Source: Pseudomonas putida (GTDB taxonomy: Bacteria; Pseudomonadota; Gammaproteobacteria; Pseudomonadales; Pseudomonadaceae). Taken from it: a stretch of DNA of 64,000 nucleotides. The position numbers were made by a program, and so were the translations under genes. The stretch covers positions 186,001 through 250,000 of the forward strand of contig NZ_MKZO01000036.1 of assembly GCF_001941965.1 (NCBI RefSeq). Direction: 5' to 3'. Shown one piece after another: positions 4,509 through 9,705 of the stretch. Numbering within the stretch: the stretch's first letter is position 1; each line of letters starts with the position of its first letter. The notes beneath the pieces are model-generated. The model was not told where the DNA came from. It saw nothing but the letters and a program-made list of their open reading frames with translations, and did not search any database.

Positions 4509-5318
4509 ATGACTGACTTTTCCGGCTTGCCCCTGGTGATCGAACCGGCAGACCTGCAGCCGCGCCTCGCTTCGCCGGAGTTGATCCTGGTCGACCTGAC
4601 CAGCGTCAACCGCTACGGCAGCGGCCATCTTCCCGGTGCCCGTTTCGTCGATCCCAAGCGCACGCAACTGGGTCAGCCGCCAGCACCCGGCCTGGCCCCG
4701 GCCAAGACCGAACTGGAAAAACTCTTCAGTGAACTGGGCCATCGCGCCGACGCCACCTACGTGGTCTACGACGACGAAGGCGGCGGCTGGGCCGGACGCT
4801 TCATCTGGCTGCTGGATGTGATCGGCCACCAGCGCTACCACTACCTCAACGGTGGCGTGCAGGCCTGGCCGGCCAACCTGCTGAGCACCGAGGTCCCGGC
4901 CAACGCTACGGCGCCGGTCAGCCTGGTGCTGCATGACGAGCCCACCGCCACCCGCGAATACCTGCAAAGCCGTCTCGGCGCCGCCGACCTGGCGATCTGG
5001 GACGCGCGCAGCCCCGGCGAATACCGTGGCGAAAAAGTCCTCGCCGCCAAGGGCGGACACATCCCCGGCGCGGTCAACTTCGAGTGGACCGCCGGCATGG
5101 ACCTGAACGACGCCCTGCGCATCCGCAAGGACATGCCGCAGATCCTCGAACAGCTGGGCATCAGCAAGGACAAGGAAGTCGTTACCCACTGCCAGACTCA
5201 CCACCGCTCGGGCTTCACCTACCTGGTGGCCAAGCACCTGGGCTACCCACGGGTCAAGGCGTACGCCGGCTCCTGGGGCGAATGGGGCAACCATCCGGAC
5301 ACGCCCGTCGAAGTTTAA
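4509..5318 (+). CDS. rhdA: Thiosulfate sulfurtransferase (rhodanese) RhdA
   Basis: A 269-residue tandem-domain rhodanese that moves sulfane sulfur from thiosulfate to cyanide or other thiophilic acceptors through a cysteine persulfide. The N-terminal inactive rhodanese domain contains SGHLPGARFVDP; the C-terminal catalytic domain contains IWDARSPGEYRG and the active-site loop CQTHHRSG, with the Cys as nucleophile. I chose the ATG at 4509, which gives the family length. The gene is followed after 9 nt by psd, the same pairing as in other Pseudomonas, so the two are probably one transcript. Pseudomonads that make cyanide may use it for detoxification, although its physiological acceptor is not settled. 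Confidence 0.93.
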   Translation: MTDFSGLPLVIEPADLQPRLASPELILVDLTSVNRYGSGHLPGARFVDPKRTQLGQPPAPGLAPAKTELEKLFSELGHRADATYVVYDDEGGGWAGRFIWLLDVIGHQRYHYLNGGVQAWPANLLSTEVPANATAPVSLVLHDEPTATREYLQSRLGAADLAIWDARSPGEYRGEKVLAAKGGHIPGAVNFEWTAGMDLNDALRIRKDMPQILEQLGISKDKEVVTHCQTHHRSGFTYLVAKHLGYPRVKAYAGSWGEWGNHPDTPVEV

Positions 5319-5327
5319 GGAAACCCA

Positions 5328-6197
5328 ATGAAATCCCGTTTGTTCATCATCAGCCAGTACCTGCTGCCCCATCACCTGCTCTCGCGCCTGGCCGGCTGCG
5401 TGGCCGAGTGCCGCGTGCGCTGGTTCAAGAACGCCTTCACCGCCTGGTTCGCCAAGCGCTACCAGGTCGACATGTCCCAGGCCCTGGTCGAAGACCTGAC
5501 CGCCTACGAGCACTTCAACGACTTCTTCACCCGGGCCCTGAAGCCGGGCGCCCGCCCGCTGGATGAAACCCCGGGCGCGATCCTCTGCCCGGCCGACGGT
5601 GCCATCAGCCAGCTGGGTCCGATCGAGCACGGCCGCATCTTCCAGGCCAAGGGCCACAGCTACAGCGCCCAGGAACTGCTCGGCGGCGATCCGGCCAATG
5701 CCGCGCCGTTCATGGGCGGCGAGTTCGCCACCGTGTACCTGTCGCCGAAGGACTACCACCGCGTGCACATGCCGCTGGCCGGTACCCTGCGGGAGATGAT
5801 CTACGTGCCGGGCCGCCTGTTCTCGGTGAACCAGACCACCGCGGAAAACGTCCCGGAGCTGTTCGCCCGCAACGAGCGCGTGGTCTGCCTGTTCGATACC
5901 GAACGCGGGCCGATGGCCGTGGTGCTGGTGGGTGCGATGATCGTCGCCTCGATCGAGACGGTGTGGGCCGGCCTGGTCACCCCGCCGAAGCGCGAGCTGA
6001 AGACCTTCCGCTACGATGAAGCCTCCCGTGCGCCGATCCATCTGGAGAAAGGTGCCGAACTGGGTCGCTTCAAGCTGGGTTCGACCGCCATCGTGCTGTT
6101 CGGCCCCGAGCAGGTGAAGTGGGCCGAAAGCCTCGGCGCCGGCTCGCCGGTCACCATGGGCCAGGGCATGGCCCTGCCGGTCGCCCCGCACGCCTGA
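5328..6197 (+). CDS. psd: Phosphatidylserine decarboxylase proenzyme
   Basis: A 289-residue membrane-associated proenzyme that converts phosphatidylserine to phosphatidylethanolamine, the last step of that lipid pathway. The self-cleavage motif LGST near the C-terminus (in [11 protein letters not shown]) marks the Gly-Ser bond whose rupture generates the pyruvoyl group on the alpha chain. Other family blocks seen are [15 protein letters not shown] and [11 protein letters not shown]. Length is normal for the bacterial type I enzyme. It follows rhdA by 9 nt with a GGAAAC-type ribosome site just before the ATG. Confidence 0.97.
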
Positions 6198-6207
6198 TCC
6201 CTGAGGC

Positions 6208-6298
6208 AGCTGCAAGCTACAAGCTGCAAGCCATAAGAAAAAGCAGACCGATGCGCTGGCTGCTTTTCCTTACAGCTTGCGGCTTAAAGCTTACAGCT
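6208..6298. repeat. Long imperfect inverted repeat with internal hairpin
   Basis: A 24-bp arm at 6208-6231 (AGCTGCAAGCTACAAGCTGC...) is repeated in inverted orientation at 6275-6298 with about 20 of 24 positions matching. The right arm covers the last codons and stop of the lectin gene. Between the arms is a perfect 8-bp hairpin, AAAAGCAG / CTGCTTTT (6239-6267). It separates the convergent psd and lectin genes and could act as a bidirectional terminator. The arms themselves contain repeated AGCTxxAAGC units. Confidence 0.7.
6239..6267. terminator. Probable bidirectional terminator between psd and the lectin gene
   Basis: Stem AAAAGCAG pairs with CTGCTTTT. The A/T-rich outer stem supplies a T-run on either strand. 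It sits between two convergent genes. Confidence 0.55.
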
Positions 6299-6698
6299 CG
6301 ATATGACTGCGGAAGCCGATCGGGCCTTCGTTGTCATAGGTGTTGGTGCCATCGAGGCTCTTGCCTCCGTCGTTCGACTTGACGCTCAGGGCAACCACGC
6401 TCTGGTTGTCGCGCCCGCCGATGACCCATTCGCCACCCGGATGCCAAGGGGCATCGTTGCCGCCCCACTGGTTCTGGACTTCGTAGCGGTTGTGGGCGAT
6501 GCGCTTGGCCTTGAAGCCGATCGGACCTTCGCCCGAGTAGGTCATCTGGCCCTTGAAGGTCACGCCACCGTCACCGGAACGGATATCGACGGCCACCACC
6601 TTCTGGTTGTCCCGCGCACCGAGCTGCCAGGTTCCACCCGGATGCCACGGTGCACTGTTACCGCCCCATTGGTTCTGAACTGCGTACTTGTTCGCCAT
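6291..6698 (-). CDS. OAA-family high-mannose-binding lectin (two repeats)
   Basis: A 135-residue protein made of two tandem copies of about 65 residues (4-68 and 71-135). Each copy contains the block NQWGGNxAPWHPGGxW, then GxRDNQxVVA, a Gly/Asp-rich turn, and the closing EGPIGF. This is the signature of the Oscillatoria agardhii agglutinin family, whose members, including one from Pseudomonas fluorescens, form a beta-barrel that binds the branched core of high-mannose glycans. No signal peptide is visible, as is usual for this family. The start is the ATG at 6698 because AAGGAG lies 9 nt upstream; an ATG at 6707 directly abuts that site and is unlikely. It is a single gene between psd (convergent) and serB. 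Its natural ligand in the bacterium is unknown. Confidence 0.9.
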   Translation of the reverse strand: MANKYAVQNQWGGNSAPWHPGGTWQLGARDNQKVVAVDIRSGDGGVTFKGQMTYSGEGPIGFKAKRIAHNRYEVQNQWGGNDAPWHPGGEWVIGGRDNQSVVALSVKSNDGGKSLDGTNTYDNEGPIGFRSHIEL

Positions 6699-6753
6699 GA
6701 ACTTCATCTCCTTGAAGTTGCTGATGGGAGACCGGCCAGTGTCCCGACCGGCC

Positions 6754-6778
6754 GTGCGACCCTCGGTACGGGCCGCAC
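6754..6778 (-). other. Imperfect inverted repeat in the lectin leader
   Basis: GTGCGxCCC at the left is matched by GGGxCGCAC at the right. A direct repeat of ACCGGCC lies just beside it, on the lectin side. Both fall in the roughly 150-bp leader between serB and the lectin start and could form mRNA structure or an operator. Confidence 0.35.
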
Positions 6779-6824
6779 GCGAGCAAGCCTAGTCGGCGCT
6801 CAAAGAACGCCAGGGCACAAGGGA

Positions 6825-6844
6825 CGAATGGTTAGAACCATTCG
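6825..6844. other. 20-bp inverted repeat upstream of the lectin gene
   Basis: CGAATGGTT, 2 nt, AACCATTCG: perfect 9-bp arms. It lies 5 bp past the serB stop codon and about 125 bp upstream of the lectin start. There is no T-tract after it on the minus strand, so it resembles an operator at least as much as a terminator. Confidence 0.5.
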
Positions 6845-6849
6845 CTCTA

Positions 6850-8082
6850 TCACGCGCCTTCGCGGTCGCGCATGCCCAGCAGGTAGAGCACGCCATCGAG
6901 GCCGAGGGTGGAGATCGCCTGCTTGGCCGACTGGCGCACCAGCGGCTTGGCACGGAAAGCCACGCCGAGGCCGGCGATAGCCAGCATCGGCAGGTCGTTG
7001 GCGCCGTCACCGACCGCGATGGTCTGCTCCATCTGCAGGCCTTCCTTGCGCGCCAGCTCGGTGAGCAGGTCGGCCTTGCGCTGGGCGTCGACGATCGGCT
7101 CGATGGCCACGCCGGTCACCTTGCCGTCGACCACTTCCAGTTCGTTGGCGAACACGTAGTCGATGCCCAGCTTGGCTTGCAGTTGCTTGGCGAAATAGGT
7201 GAAGCCGCCGGAGAGGATGGCGGTCTTGTAGCCGAGGCGCTTGAGTTCGGCGAACAGGGTTTCCGCGCCCTCGGTCAGGCGCAGCGAGGCGCCGATATCG
7301 TCGAGCACGTTGACGTCCAGGCCCTTGAGCAGTGCCAGGCGCTCCTTGAAGCTGGCGCGGAAGTCCAACTCGCCGCGCATGGCGCGCTCGGTGATTTCCG
7401 AGACCTGCTCGCCGACGCCGGCGGCCTTGGCCAGTTCGTCGATCACTTCGGCCTCGATCAGCGTCGAGTCCATGTCGAACACCGCCAGGCGGCGGTTGCG
7501 GCGGAACAGCGAATCCTGCTGGAAGGCGATATCGACGCTCAGTTCCTGGCCGACACTGAGGAATTCGGCACGCAGGGCCTGGGGATCGGCCGGTTCGCCG
7601 CGCACGGAGAACTCGATGCAACCCTTGCCCTGCTCCACCGGGGTGTCCAGCGCCACGCGACCGGACAGGCGGTCGATATGGTCGATGTTCAGCCCGTACT
7701 TGGCGGTGATGGAGCTGACGCGCTGCAATTGCTCGGCGGTGACCTTGCGGGTCAGCAGGGTCACGATGTGGCGTGGCTTGCCCTGGTTGGACACCCAGTT
7801 GCGGTAGTCTTCTTCCGAGACCGGGGTGAAACGCACCTGCTGGTTCAGTTCGTAGCCGGTGAACAGCAGGTCCTTGAGTACCGAGGAGCCCTGCTCGGTG
7901 CCGGGAATCTCGACGAGGATGCCGAACGACAGGGTGTCGTGGATCACCGCCTGGCCAATATCGAGGATGTTCACACCGCCACGGGCCAGAACGCCGGTAA
8001 TGGCCGCGGTCAGACCCGGACGGTCCTCACCGGTGATGTTGATCAAGACGATTTCGCGCAAGACGGGCTCCAGGACGTGCAA
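6850..8082 (-). CDS. serB: Phosphoserine phosphatase SerB with two ACT domains
   Basis: A 410-residue enzyme for the last step of serine synthesis, removing phosphate from phosphoserine. Two ACT-like regulatory domains (about 10-80 and 104-180) precede a HAD-family phosphatase domain with motif I FDMDSTL (D203 and D205), the SGGFTYF loop, and the metal-binding motif GDGANDLPM. The ACT domains suggest control by serine binding. The start is ambiguous: the ATG at 8082 gives the length listed, but a TTG at 8061, preceded by CTGGAG, would begin LREIVLINI, closer to where the family usually starts. The gene is divergent from the AhpA-like gene across about 114 bp. Confidence 0.95.
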   Translation of the reverse strand: MHVLEPVLREIVLINITGEDRPGLTAAITGVLARGGVNILDIGQAVIHDTLSFGILVEIPGTEQGSSVLKDLLFTGYELNQQVRFTPVSEEDYRNWVSNQGKPRHIVTLLTRKVTAEQLQRVSSITAKYGLNIDHIDRLSGRVALDTPVEQGKGCIEFSVRGEPADPQALRAEFLSVGQELSVDIAFQQDSLFRRNRRLAVFDMDSTLIEAEVIDELAKAAGVGEQVSEITERAMRGELDFRASFKERLALLKGLDVNVLDDIGASLRLTEGAETLFAELKRLGYKTAILSGGFTYFAKQLQAKLGIDYVFANELEVVDGKVTGVAIEPIVDAQRKADLLTELARKEGLQMEQTIAVGDGANDLPMLAIAGLGVAFRAKPLVRQSAKQAISTLGLDGVLYLLGMRDREGA

Positions 8083-8196
8083 AAAATGCGCATTCTACCG
8101 CCTTTTGCGGACCATCGGGCGCAGTCGATGCTTTGCCGCCCGAAGGGCGCTCGCTATACTGCGCAGCAATTTCTCCGTCATAAAGAGCCGCGCTCA

Positions 8197-9705
8197 GTGA
8201 ACCGGCCCACGCCCGTCAAAACCGACAACTTCTTCCTGCTGATCTTCCGTGCCCTGCGTCAGCGTCGCGTGCCACTGGCACTGCGCATCGCCTGCCACAA
8301 CATTTTCCTGGTTGCCCTGGCGCTGGTGATCTACGCCTGCGTGATGGGTTTGCAGTTCAAGGAAGCCATGCACGAACAGGCCGACGCCCTCGGGCAGAGC
8401 CTGACCACCCAGACCGCGACCTCGGCCACCGAGCTGCTGGTGTCCAACGACATCCTCAGCCTCAACGTGCTGCTCGGCAACCTGGTGAAGAACCCGCTGG
8501 TGGCCCATGCCGCGATCTACAGCGTGGACAACCGGATTCTTGCCGAAGCCGGCCAGCGCCCGAAGAACAGCCTTCTTGGCGAGGCCGAGGGCCTGTACCA
8601 AACCAAGATCACTTTCCAGGACGTCACTGCCGGGCAACTGCGCATCAGCCTCGACATGAGCCAGTTCCAGCAGCCGATGACCATCAGCATGCAGAGCATG
8701 GGCATCCTGGCCGGGATCCTGCTGGCCTTGGCGCTGACCATGAGCCTGCGCCTCGGGCGCTACGTCTCCACACCGTTGCTGCAACTGCGGGTGTGGCTGC
8801 GTGACCTGGACGAATACACCCCGGCCACCGAGCGCCAGGACGAGATCGGCGACCTCGCGCGCCAGTTGCACGCACGCTTCGCCCCGCCGCCAAAGCCGGT
8901 CGAGCCCGAGCCGGAAATCGAGGACGAGTTCGAGGAAGACGCCGAGCCGTTCGAAGTGCGTGATCTGCGCGATCCGGAGTTCGACGAAGCGCCCGCGGTG
9001 GTGCGTCCGGTCAAGCGCGTGGTGGAAGCTGAAGAAGACGAAGATGACGACGCCTTCGCCGACCTGCGTGACGACGCCGTGCCGGCTGCCGCGCCGGTCG
9101 CCGCCAAGCCGGTCGCTCCACGTGAACCGACGAAAAGCGCCGTGCTGGCCGTGCAACTGGGTTCTCAGGAGCAACTGCGCCGCCTGCCCCGCGCCCGCCT
9201 GACCGAGCTTCTGGAGCGCTACCGCGACTGCCTGGACCAGGCGGCGTCGCTGTATGAAGGTGAAGTGCAGACGCTCAACGATGGCAGCACCCTGTTGCTG
9301 TTCCACAGCCAGGACAGTGGCGAGGATTACCTGACCAATGCCATCTGCTGTGGCGAACTGTTGCGGGCCCTGGGTCATGCCTTGCAGGTAGAAGTGGCCG
9401 ACAGCGGCATTACCTTGCAACTGCAGTTGGGCCTGGCGCTGGGTGAAAACCTGAATGGCCTGAGCCAGATCGACCTGCTGCTGACCGAAAAGGCCCAGGA
9501 TGCCCTGGCCCTGTCGCAGCACAGCCGTAATCTGCTGCTGGTGGAACGCAAGATCAGTGATGACGCGCTGATTCGCCAGCGTGCGCGGATCCGCCCGATT
9601 GCCAGCCCTGAGGGCGCCTGTTGTGTGGAGCGCTTGATGGAGCCTTATCCGTCGATGCTGGAACGGCAGCTGGCGCGGATGCATGAGCGGCAGGTGAAGA
9701 ACTGA
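8197..9705 (+). CDS. AhpA/SMP-like inner-membrane protein with acidic linker
   Basis: A 502-residue protein divergent from serB, the place where gamma-proteobacteria carry the AhpA/YtjB (SMP) membrane protein. One membrane helix at about 31-50, a periplasmic segment with LSLNVLLGNLVKNPLVAHAAIYSV, and a second helix at about 167-185 give the AhpA-type fold. A HAMP-like segment follows, then an acidic Pro-rich linker (231-310, many Glu/Asp), then a C-terminal globular domain (311-502) that looks like a diverged nucleotide-cyclase or GGDEF-like fold without recognisable catalytic residues. The start is GTG at 8197, beginning MNRPTPVKTD; an AAAGAG stretch about nine bases upstream is the only ribosome site seen. 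A sensory role is inferred from architecture only. Confidence 0.75.
   Translation: MNRPTPVKTDNFFLLIFRALRQRRVPLALRIACHNIFLVALALVIYACVMGLQFKEAMHEQADALGQSLTTQTATSATELLVSNDILSLNVLLGNLVKNPLVAHAAIYSVDNRILAEAGQRPKNSLLGEAEGLYQTKITFQDVTAGQLRISLDMSQFQQPMTISMQSMGILAGILLALALTMSLRLGRYVSTPLLQLRVWLRDLDEYTPATERQDEIGDLARQLHARFAPPPKPVEPEPEIEDEFEEDAEPFEVRDLRDPEFDEAPAVVRPVKRVVEAEEDEDDDAFADLRDDAVPAAAPVAAKPVAPREPTKSAVLAVQLGSQEQLRRLPRARLTELLERYRDCLDQAASLYEGEVQTLNDGSTLLLFHSQDSGEDYLTNAICCGELLRALGHALQVEVADSGITLQLQLGLALGENLNGLSQIDLLLTEKAQDALALSQHSRNLLLVERKISDDALIRQRARIRPIASPEGACCVERLMEPYPSMLERQLARMHERQVKN

Follow-up and report, generated by a model that had tools for sequence, protein, structure and literature searches.

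Gene content of the psd-serB junction

In the 64,000-nucleotide stretch of Pseudomonas putida DNA analysed here (the window), a gene coding for a lectin of the OAA family lies between psd, with which it is convergent, and serB, and is preceded by a putative promoter and a structured leader (Table 1). The location of the gene at this junction had already been proposed by the first-pass annotation, and the identity of both neighbours was verified by the profiles TIGR00163 and TIGR00338. In the ORF list of the window the intact reading frame spans nt 6291–6707 on the minus strand. Translation likely starts from the ATG at nt 6698 and not from the upstream ATG at nt 6707, since the Shine-Dalgarno sequence AAGGAG directly abuts the latter, and two out of three relatives of the taiwanensis clade do not have the upstream ATG.

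Table 1. Features predicted in and around the lectin gene (positions are those of the window; a dot means no strand assigned)
Feature	Position (nt)	Strand	Basis
psd, phosphatidylserine decarboxylase (flank)	5328..6197	+	TIGR00163
Palindromic repeat, dispersed in the genome, covering the lectin stop where the lectin and psd genes converge	6198..6302	.	Genome self-match
Lectin gene (OAA family; product of 135 aa with two repeats)	6291..6698	-	Pfam/NCBIfam profile matches
Hairpin 3 (AACUUCA-AGGAGA-UGAAGUU), almost without variation, its loop holding the Shine-Dalgarno sequence	6700..6719	-	Alignment
Shine-Dalgarno sequence AAGGAG, which doubles as an RsmA/RsmE-type ANGGAN motif	6708..6713	-	Motif as given in PMC7652899
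Hairpin 2, overlapping hairpin 1 by one base if the outermost pair of the latter forms	6730..6753	-	Folding, alignment
Hairpin 1, predicted mRNA 5' end, compensatory changes between clades	6753..6779	-	Covariation
Putative -10 element of the sigma-S type, CTAGGCT, its end 6 nt upstream of hairpin 1	6786..6792	-	CTANNCT conservation
serB, phosphoserine phosphatase (flank)	6850..8082	-	TIGR00338

The repeat covering the lectin stop codon is of the CAAGCTGTAAG type and gave 68 matches in its own genome when both orientations were counted, corresponding to about 41 places, itself included, once merged by eye. It is probably the terminator of the convergent lectin and psd genes. The inverted repeat noticed at first pass is real, but it does not mark the arrival of the lectin, because it is a dispersed element and because the three closest relatives (L068–L070) have, by reading, other terminators at the lectin stop. 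Just past the serB stop, at about nt 6827–6846, a 20-base palindrome, CGAATGGTTAGAACCATTCG, was also observed, which is almost unchanged in L068–L070.

The lectin protein

The Pfam profile PF17882 matched the protein in two stretches (E 2.4e-44; 149.9 bits against a cut-off of 20), and the profile NF050073, "lectin OAA family protein", matched it with 215 bits against a cut-off of 150. The two 65-residue repeats described in the first-pass annotation are present, but "near-identical" was too strong a term for them, as 38 of 58 positions (66%) are identical. The solved relatives are MBHA, BOA, SfL-1, PTL, PFA and OAA, and identity is 77–78% with PTL and PFA, which come from Pseudomonas. Of five AlphaFold models, two were poor (33–35); the best, with a mean pLDDT of 85.8, has ten strands and agrees with the ten-stranded barrel of the PTL/OAA fold, and Foldseek searches with this model ranked PTL (7dc0) and PFA (4fbo) in the first two positions, with TMq of 0.87–0.88.

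The glycan-contact residues listed for PTL in PMC8166773 map to W11, G12, G13, R29, E57, G58, P59, W78, G79, G80, R96, E124, G125 and P126 of the window lectin. All 14 are kept, and all fall in columns that are invariant across 34 distinct Pseudomonas-type lectins; both glycan sites are intact, as judged by sequence. The original reading of a lone gene for an OAA-type lectin is upheld.

PTL of P. taiwanensis (PDB 7dc0/7dc4) is 80% identical to the window lectin over residues 3–131 and has the same fold and contacts, the difference being in the C-terminal residues. PFL/PFA of P. fluorescens Pf0-1 (PDB 4fbo) shows 78% identity in the fold match. OAA, MBHA and BOA share the repeat, the fold and the contacts, but identity falls to 53–64% in the fold matches, and the chains of MBHA and BOA are twice as long. 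The contig of the PTL paper, NZ_KE384450.1, corresponds to L152 in our set; in L039, its counterpart, the lectin again has psd on one side and serB on the other. The window protein adds an unremarkable member to a family already known and is, judged by its position, an ortholog of PTL.

No signal peptide was seen by eye in the window lectin. Among 42 relatives outside the genus, a lectin from an Azospirillaceae MAG (L206) is the sole clear case, again by eye, of an apparent signal peptide. Long N-terminal extensions ahead of the repeat occur in some of these 42 proteins and may be start-codon artefacts.

Distribution and history of the locus

Of 398 genomes from the genus, 40 carry the lectin, the window's genome counted, always in single copy; in an even sample of the class, 3 of 369 genomes have the family, its own genome again counted. 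In all the 39 other lectin-bearing loci, every one of which was opened, psd adjoins the lectin convergently and in the same orientation, and serB lies beyond the lectin, on the lectin's strand, in all 38 whose contig extends that far. The lectin and serB are directly adjacent in six relatives, as in the window, and separated by about 2 kb in 32. A gene of approximately 590 aa, possibly PilZ-like and on the strand opposite to the lectin, was read in four of these loci; of the 39 relatives (L032–L070), 33 have it between the lectin and serB, all except the six with adjacent serB. Fluorescens-type loci differ from the window by this extra gene.

The adjacency of psd and serB elsewhere in Pseudomonas, which the first-pass annotation had indicated as a comparison to be made, proved to be variable. 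In the 20 lectin-negative loci opened (the best 20 psd scores among 30 lectin-negative genomes searched, of 358), psd and serB are adjacent in ten; nine others have them collinear with some 2 kb in between, and in the remaining one (L103) serB is inverted relative to psd. The 590-aa gene is present in the nine loci (within L101–L120) with the 2 kb gap, between serB and psd; as a partner of the lectin it was rejected, being found also without the lectin and absent from the window's clade. No lectin relics were detected at the 20 lectin-less junctions, either by blastn (E 0.01, with 9 of the 40 lectin units as queries) or by tblastn (E 1, with the window lectin).

On a tree of psd and SerB from 59 of 60 loci (L064, lacking serB, was left out), 8 changes suffice to place the lectin label, where shuffled labels take 17.1 (0 of 500 shuffles as low), and the starred branches force at least 5 of such changes. 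Distances between lectins correlate with those between the flanking psd and serB (Mantel r 0.91 over 39 loci, a value reached by 0 of 2000 permutations). Homologous recombination could, in turn, carry the flanks on which the tree is built along with the lectin. In a family tree of 81 members, a sample built from the best 80 of 99 relatives found with two peptide patterns, 39 Pseudomonas-type rows lie on one side of a single branch, with an SH-aLRT support of 79 from few columns. Two of these rows bear other names, namely Pantoea sp. Ap-967 (L150), probably a mislabel, and a Paucimonas MAG (L145). A mobile carrier was searched for by tblastn of the lectin against 72,556 plasmid and 50,697 phage records and was rejected, as no match was found.

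A single old gain at the psd-serB slot, followed by several losses or by exchanges through flank recombination, fits these data better, since presence is patchy (40/398) yet the slot is fixed and the distances co-vary with those of the flanks. The recent insertion into a conserved junction of the window's lineage suggested at first pass, which patchiness and the empty junction in 20 of 20 lectin-negative loci would favour, is very improbable given the identical slot and orientation across all clades seen (39/39), the co-divergence with the flanks, the single Pseudomonas-type group (supported only at 79), a leader common to the relatives and the lack of plasmid or phage matches. Universal presence in the genus, named beforehand as the observation that would count against recent gain, was not what we found, as 358 of 398 genomes are without the lectin.

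A conserved leader RNA upstream of the lectin gene

The lectin leader is 81 nt long and contains three hairpins, conserved across the 40 leaders compared, which bears out the structured leader recognised in the first-pass annotation. The stretch directly before the ATG, AACTTCAAGGAGATGA(A/G)GTT, is almost constant across clades (with the exception of L037, L040 and L051), whereas the sequence upstream of it varies between them. It folds into a 7-pair hairpin exposing the Shine-Dalgarno sequence in the loop, with the two further hairpins above. The GGA of this loop can be drawn either in AGGAGA (6 nt, with ANGGAN out of register) or in AAGGAGAU (8 nt, closed by a C-G pair). Regulation as an RNA thermometer was set aside by reasoning, as the Shine-Dalgarno sequence is in the loop and not in the stem.

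Leaving out L043, where hairpin 1 is partly missing, the 40 leaders reduce to 26 distinct sequences, of which L037, L039 and L040 were misregistered by MAFFT, and covariation was evaluated on the other 23. In this alignment 99.4% of 529 cells are paired, and sliding the partners cuts pairing to 30–38%. Changes on both sides of a pair were counted in 17 cells, against 5.0 after shuffling (0 of 500 as high), and involve 5 pairs, against 2.6 (16 of 500 as high); 18 further pair types were observed against 15.7 (16 of 500 as high). Hairpin 1 was also aligned separately across three clades, including taiwanensis, using 12 of 13 distinct stretches (L067, out of register, was left out) with start positions set by hand, by search and by homology. 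Here 95.4% of the cells pair, and both-side changes affect 6 of 9 pairs against 4.0 shuffled (40 of 500 as high) and 15 cells against 6.8 (0 of 500 as high), with no excess of further pair types over the shuffles (321 of 500). Hairpin 3 hardly varies and so yields no covariation evidence in either direction.

A covariance model built from the 23 leaders, several of which come from the genomes searched, found 12 sites in 119 genomes under stricter filters, each immediately upstream of a lectin gene, and no extra site at non-lectin genes. Leaders unused in its building were recovered (L145, E 5e-12; L146, E 1e-10), as was that of L043 (E 2e-13). Leaders of the taiwanensis clade were found weakly (E 7e-4 to 0.01), among them that of PTL (E 6.8e-4), in which the sequence of hairpin 1 is different and hairpin 2 is remodelled. 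In the 42 loci outside the genus, the model gave nothing at E 1 with default filters, and no Shine-Dalgarno hairpin of more than 5 pairs was present in the 37 with a readable start. A cloning primer for PFL printed in PMC3447791 reads, by eye, as the region from hairpin 2 to hairpin 3.

The Rfam search of nt 5900–8300 returned no match above the gathering score; three sub-threshold, microRNA-like matches all fall within nt 6203–6303, that is, in the dispersed repeat. Among open-licence PMC papers we found no account of the regulation of a Pseudomonas OAA-type lectin. As far as Rfam and this literature show, the lectin leader is undescribed, and it would be a new regulatory RNA family.

Putative control of lectin expression

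In 39 of 40 leaders the motif CTANNCT keeps one distance to hairpin 1, ending 6 nt ahead of its first base. That base was placed by hand and by homology, and such a constant distance is expected if the mRNA begins with the hairpin. RpoS-type promoters have a CTA-type -10 element in which positions -13 and -8 are both C. The sigma-S-like class attributed to the lectin promoter rests on this short consensus, and we consider it probable that transcription starts from such a promoter at hairpin 1. The exception, L043 (nt 5036–5132), is a natural variant in which the 5' arm and the loop of hairpin 1 are apparently deleted, while the -10 element and hairpins 2 and 3 are kept. Hairpin 1 would then guard the 5' end of a long-lived lectin mRNA, a function that we regard as conceivable, if somewhat doubtful.

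An ANGGAN motif overlapping the Shine-Dalgarno sequence is present in 40 of 40 leaders. Motifs in this position are the type of site through which RsmA and RsmE repress translation, according to passages of PMC7726476, PMC7652899 and PMC7366521. The genome carrying the window codes for RsmZ (139.6 bits) and for three genes of the CsrA family. RsmA/RsmE might bind the ANGGAN of hairpin 3 and would block translation until titrated by GacA-driven RsmX/Y/Z. The hcnA leader of P. protegens, a target of RsmE, similarly has a Shine-Dalgarno sequence with ANGGAN in a hairpin loop (PMC7652899, PMC7366521); the lectin leader differs in having a longer or displaced loop, a longer stem and only one A-N-GGA site. 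Indeed, each of the 40 leaders has a single A-N-GGA site (plain GGA occurs elsewhere in most of them, in no conserved place), and two or more, as is common but not universal in CsrA targets, were found in none. Many CsrA targets are described as carrying two or more sites (PMC7652899), and a triplet is spoken of in PMC4066749; CsrA binding is reportedly weakened by additional nucleotides in the loop and by stems of very high stability (PMC7652899). Because of the single site, the non-canonical register of the loop and the background of similar hairpins at other window ORFs (below), we keep Rsm control as a tentative proposal, somewhat short of probable.

It is also quite possible, though again we would not call it probable, that the hairpins merely provide a strong and stable ribosome-binding site for constitutive high expression, with no Rsm control. 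The display of the Shine-Dalgarno sequence in a loop and the single A-N-GGA site are consistent with this explanation, as are stems of 7 pairs, longer than those of most CsrA SELEX ligands (PMC7652899), and the occurrence of an equally long GGA-loop hairpin before the ATG of 1 of 91 other window ORFs of at least 200 aa (many of them spurious, and most with 0–3 pairs). On the contrary, the 20 nt of hairpin 3 are kept almost letter for letter while the remaining leader differs by clade, and among the 8 sites of the pattern TTCANGGANNTGAA in the genome only that of the lectin exceeds 5 pairs, which argues against a generic ribosome-binding site.

Natural role of the lectin

The overall explanation that we favour, with a probability of roughly 0.5, is that of a long-resident cytosolic high-mannose lectin having its own expression unit of the stationary-phase type. 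Comparison shows the family, the fold, the intact glycan contacts, the fixed locus, the co-divergence with the flanks, the patchiness and a three-hairpin leader restricted, in the genomes searched, to the lectin. The protein would build up in the cytosol until lysis or ingestion of the cell sets it free; with one site at each end of the barrel, it would then cross-link the high-mannose N-glycans of eukaryotes such as amoebae, nematodes and fungi, or of host surfaces. We infer a eukaryotic target, be it partner or predator, because PFL prefers high-mannose glycans with exposed alpha1-3 mannose, as described from array binding in PMC3447791, and because no signal peptide is visible; our confidence in this role of a lectin released by lysis or ingestion is nearly, but not quite, even. 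As for the family as a whole, the PFL authors write that its physiological roles are still to be clarified (PMC3447791).

The main rival is a lectin of the biofilm matrix or of the producer's own surface that, after lysis, would cross-link the mannose- or D-rhamnose-rich polysaccharides of the producer, with no need of a eukaryotic target. A metaproteome of the marine plastisphere is reported to contain a Pseudomonas "OAA-family lectin", apparently at a higher level at day 3 than at day 7 (PMC11962581), and LecA is described as helping to maintain the P. aeruginosa biofilm (PMC3053476), both of which would suit a matrix function. The preference of PFL for exposed alpha1-3 mannose on high-mannose glycans and the lack of any polysaccharide gene recognised by eye beside the lectin in the window ORF list point away from it, and we hold a matrix role to be unlikely. 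A bacteriocin-like antibacterial lectin, although suggested by the PFL authors, is distinctly improbable, as LlpA-type bacteriocins consist of monocot mannose-binding lectin domains, a different family (PMC3447791), and the lectin is flanked by two housekeeping genes, psd and serB, and not by an immunity gene.

Returning to the cytosolic lectin with a eukaryotic target, a known system may provide a counterpart for its control. LecA (PA-IL) of P. aeruginosa is a galactose-binding lectin that is unrelated in sequence to the OAA family and not a member of it. As described in PMC3053476 and PMC4066749, LecA requires RpoS and is repressed by RsmA; the window lectin would be run in a like manner, as a counterpart in logic. 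More speculatively, the three-hairpin, lectin-specific leader may place the OAA lectins of Pseudomonas under both RpoS and Gac/Rsm, the lectin being a cytosolic store directed against eukaryotes and filled in stationary phase, a proposal that we advance with considerable reserve.

PFL and PTL have been studied as antiviral or anticancer proteins, and the conserved leader, together with the likely promoter, indicates when the cell wants the lectin. Should control by RpoS and Gac/Rsm of such an anti-eukaryote store be true, it would explain the purpose of PFL and PTL, and the leader makes the question of the natural role of an otherwise ordinary lectin directly open to genetic test.
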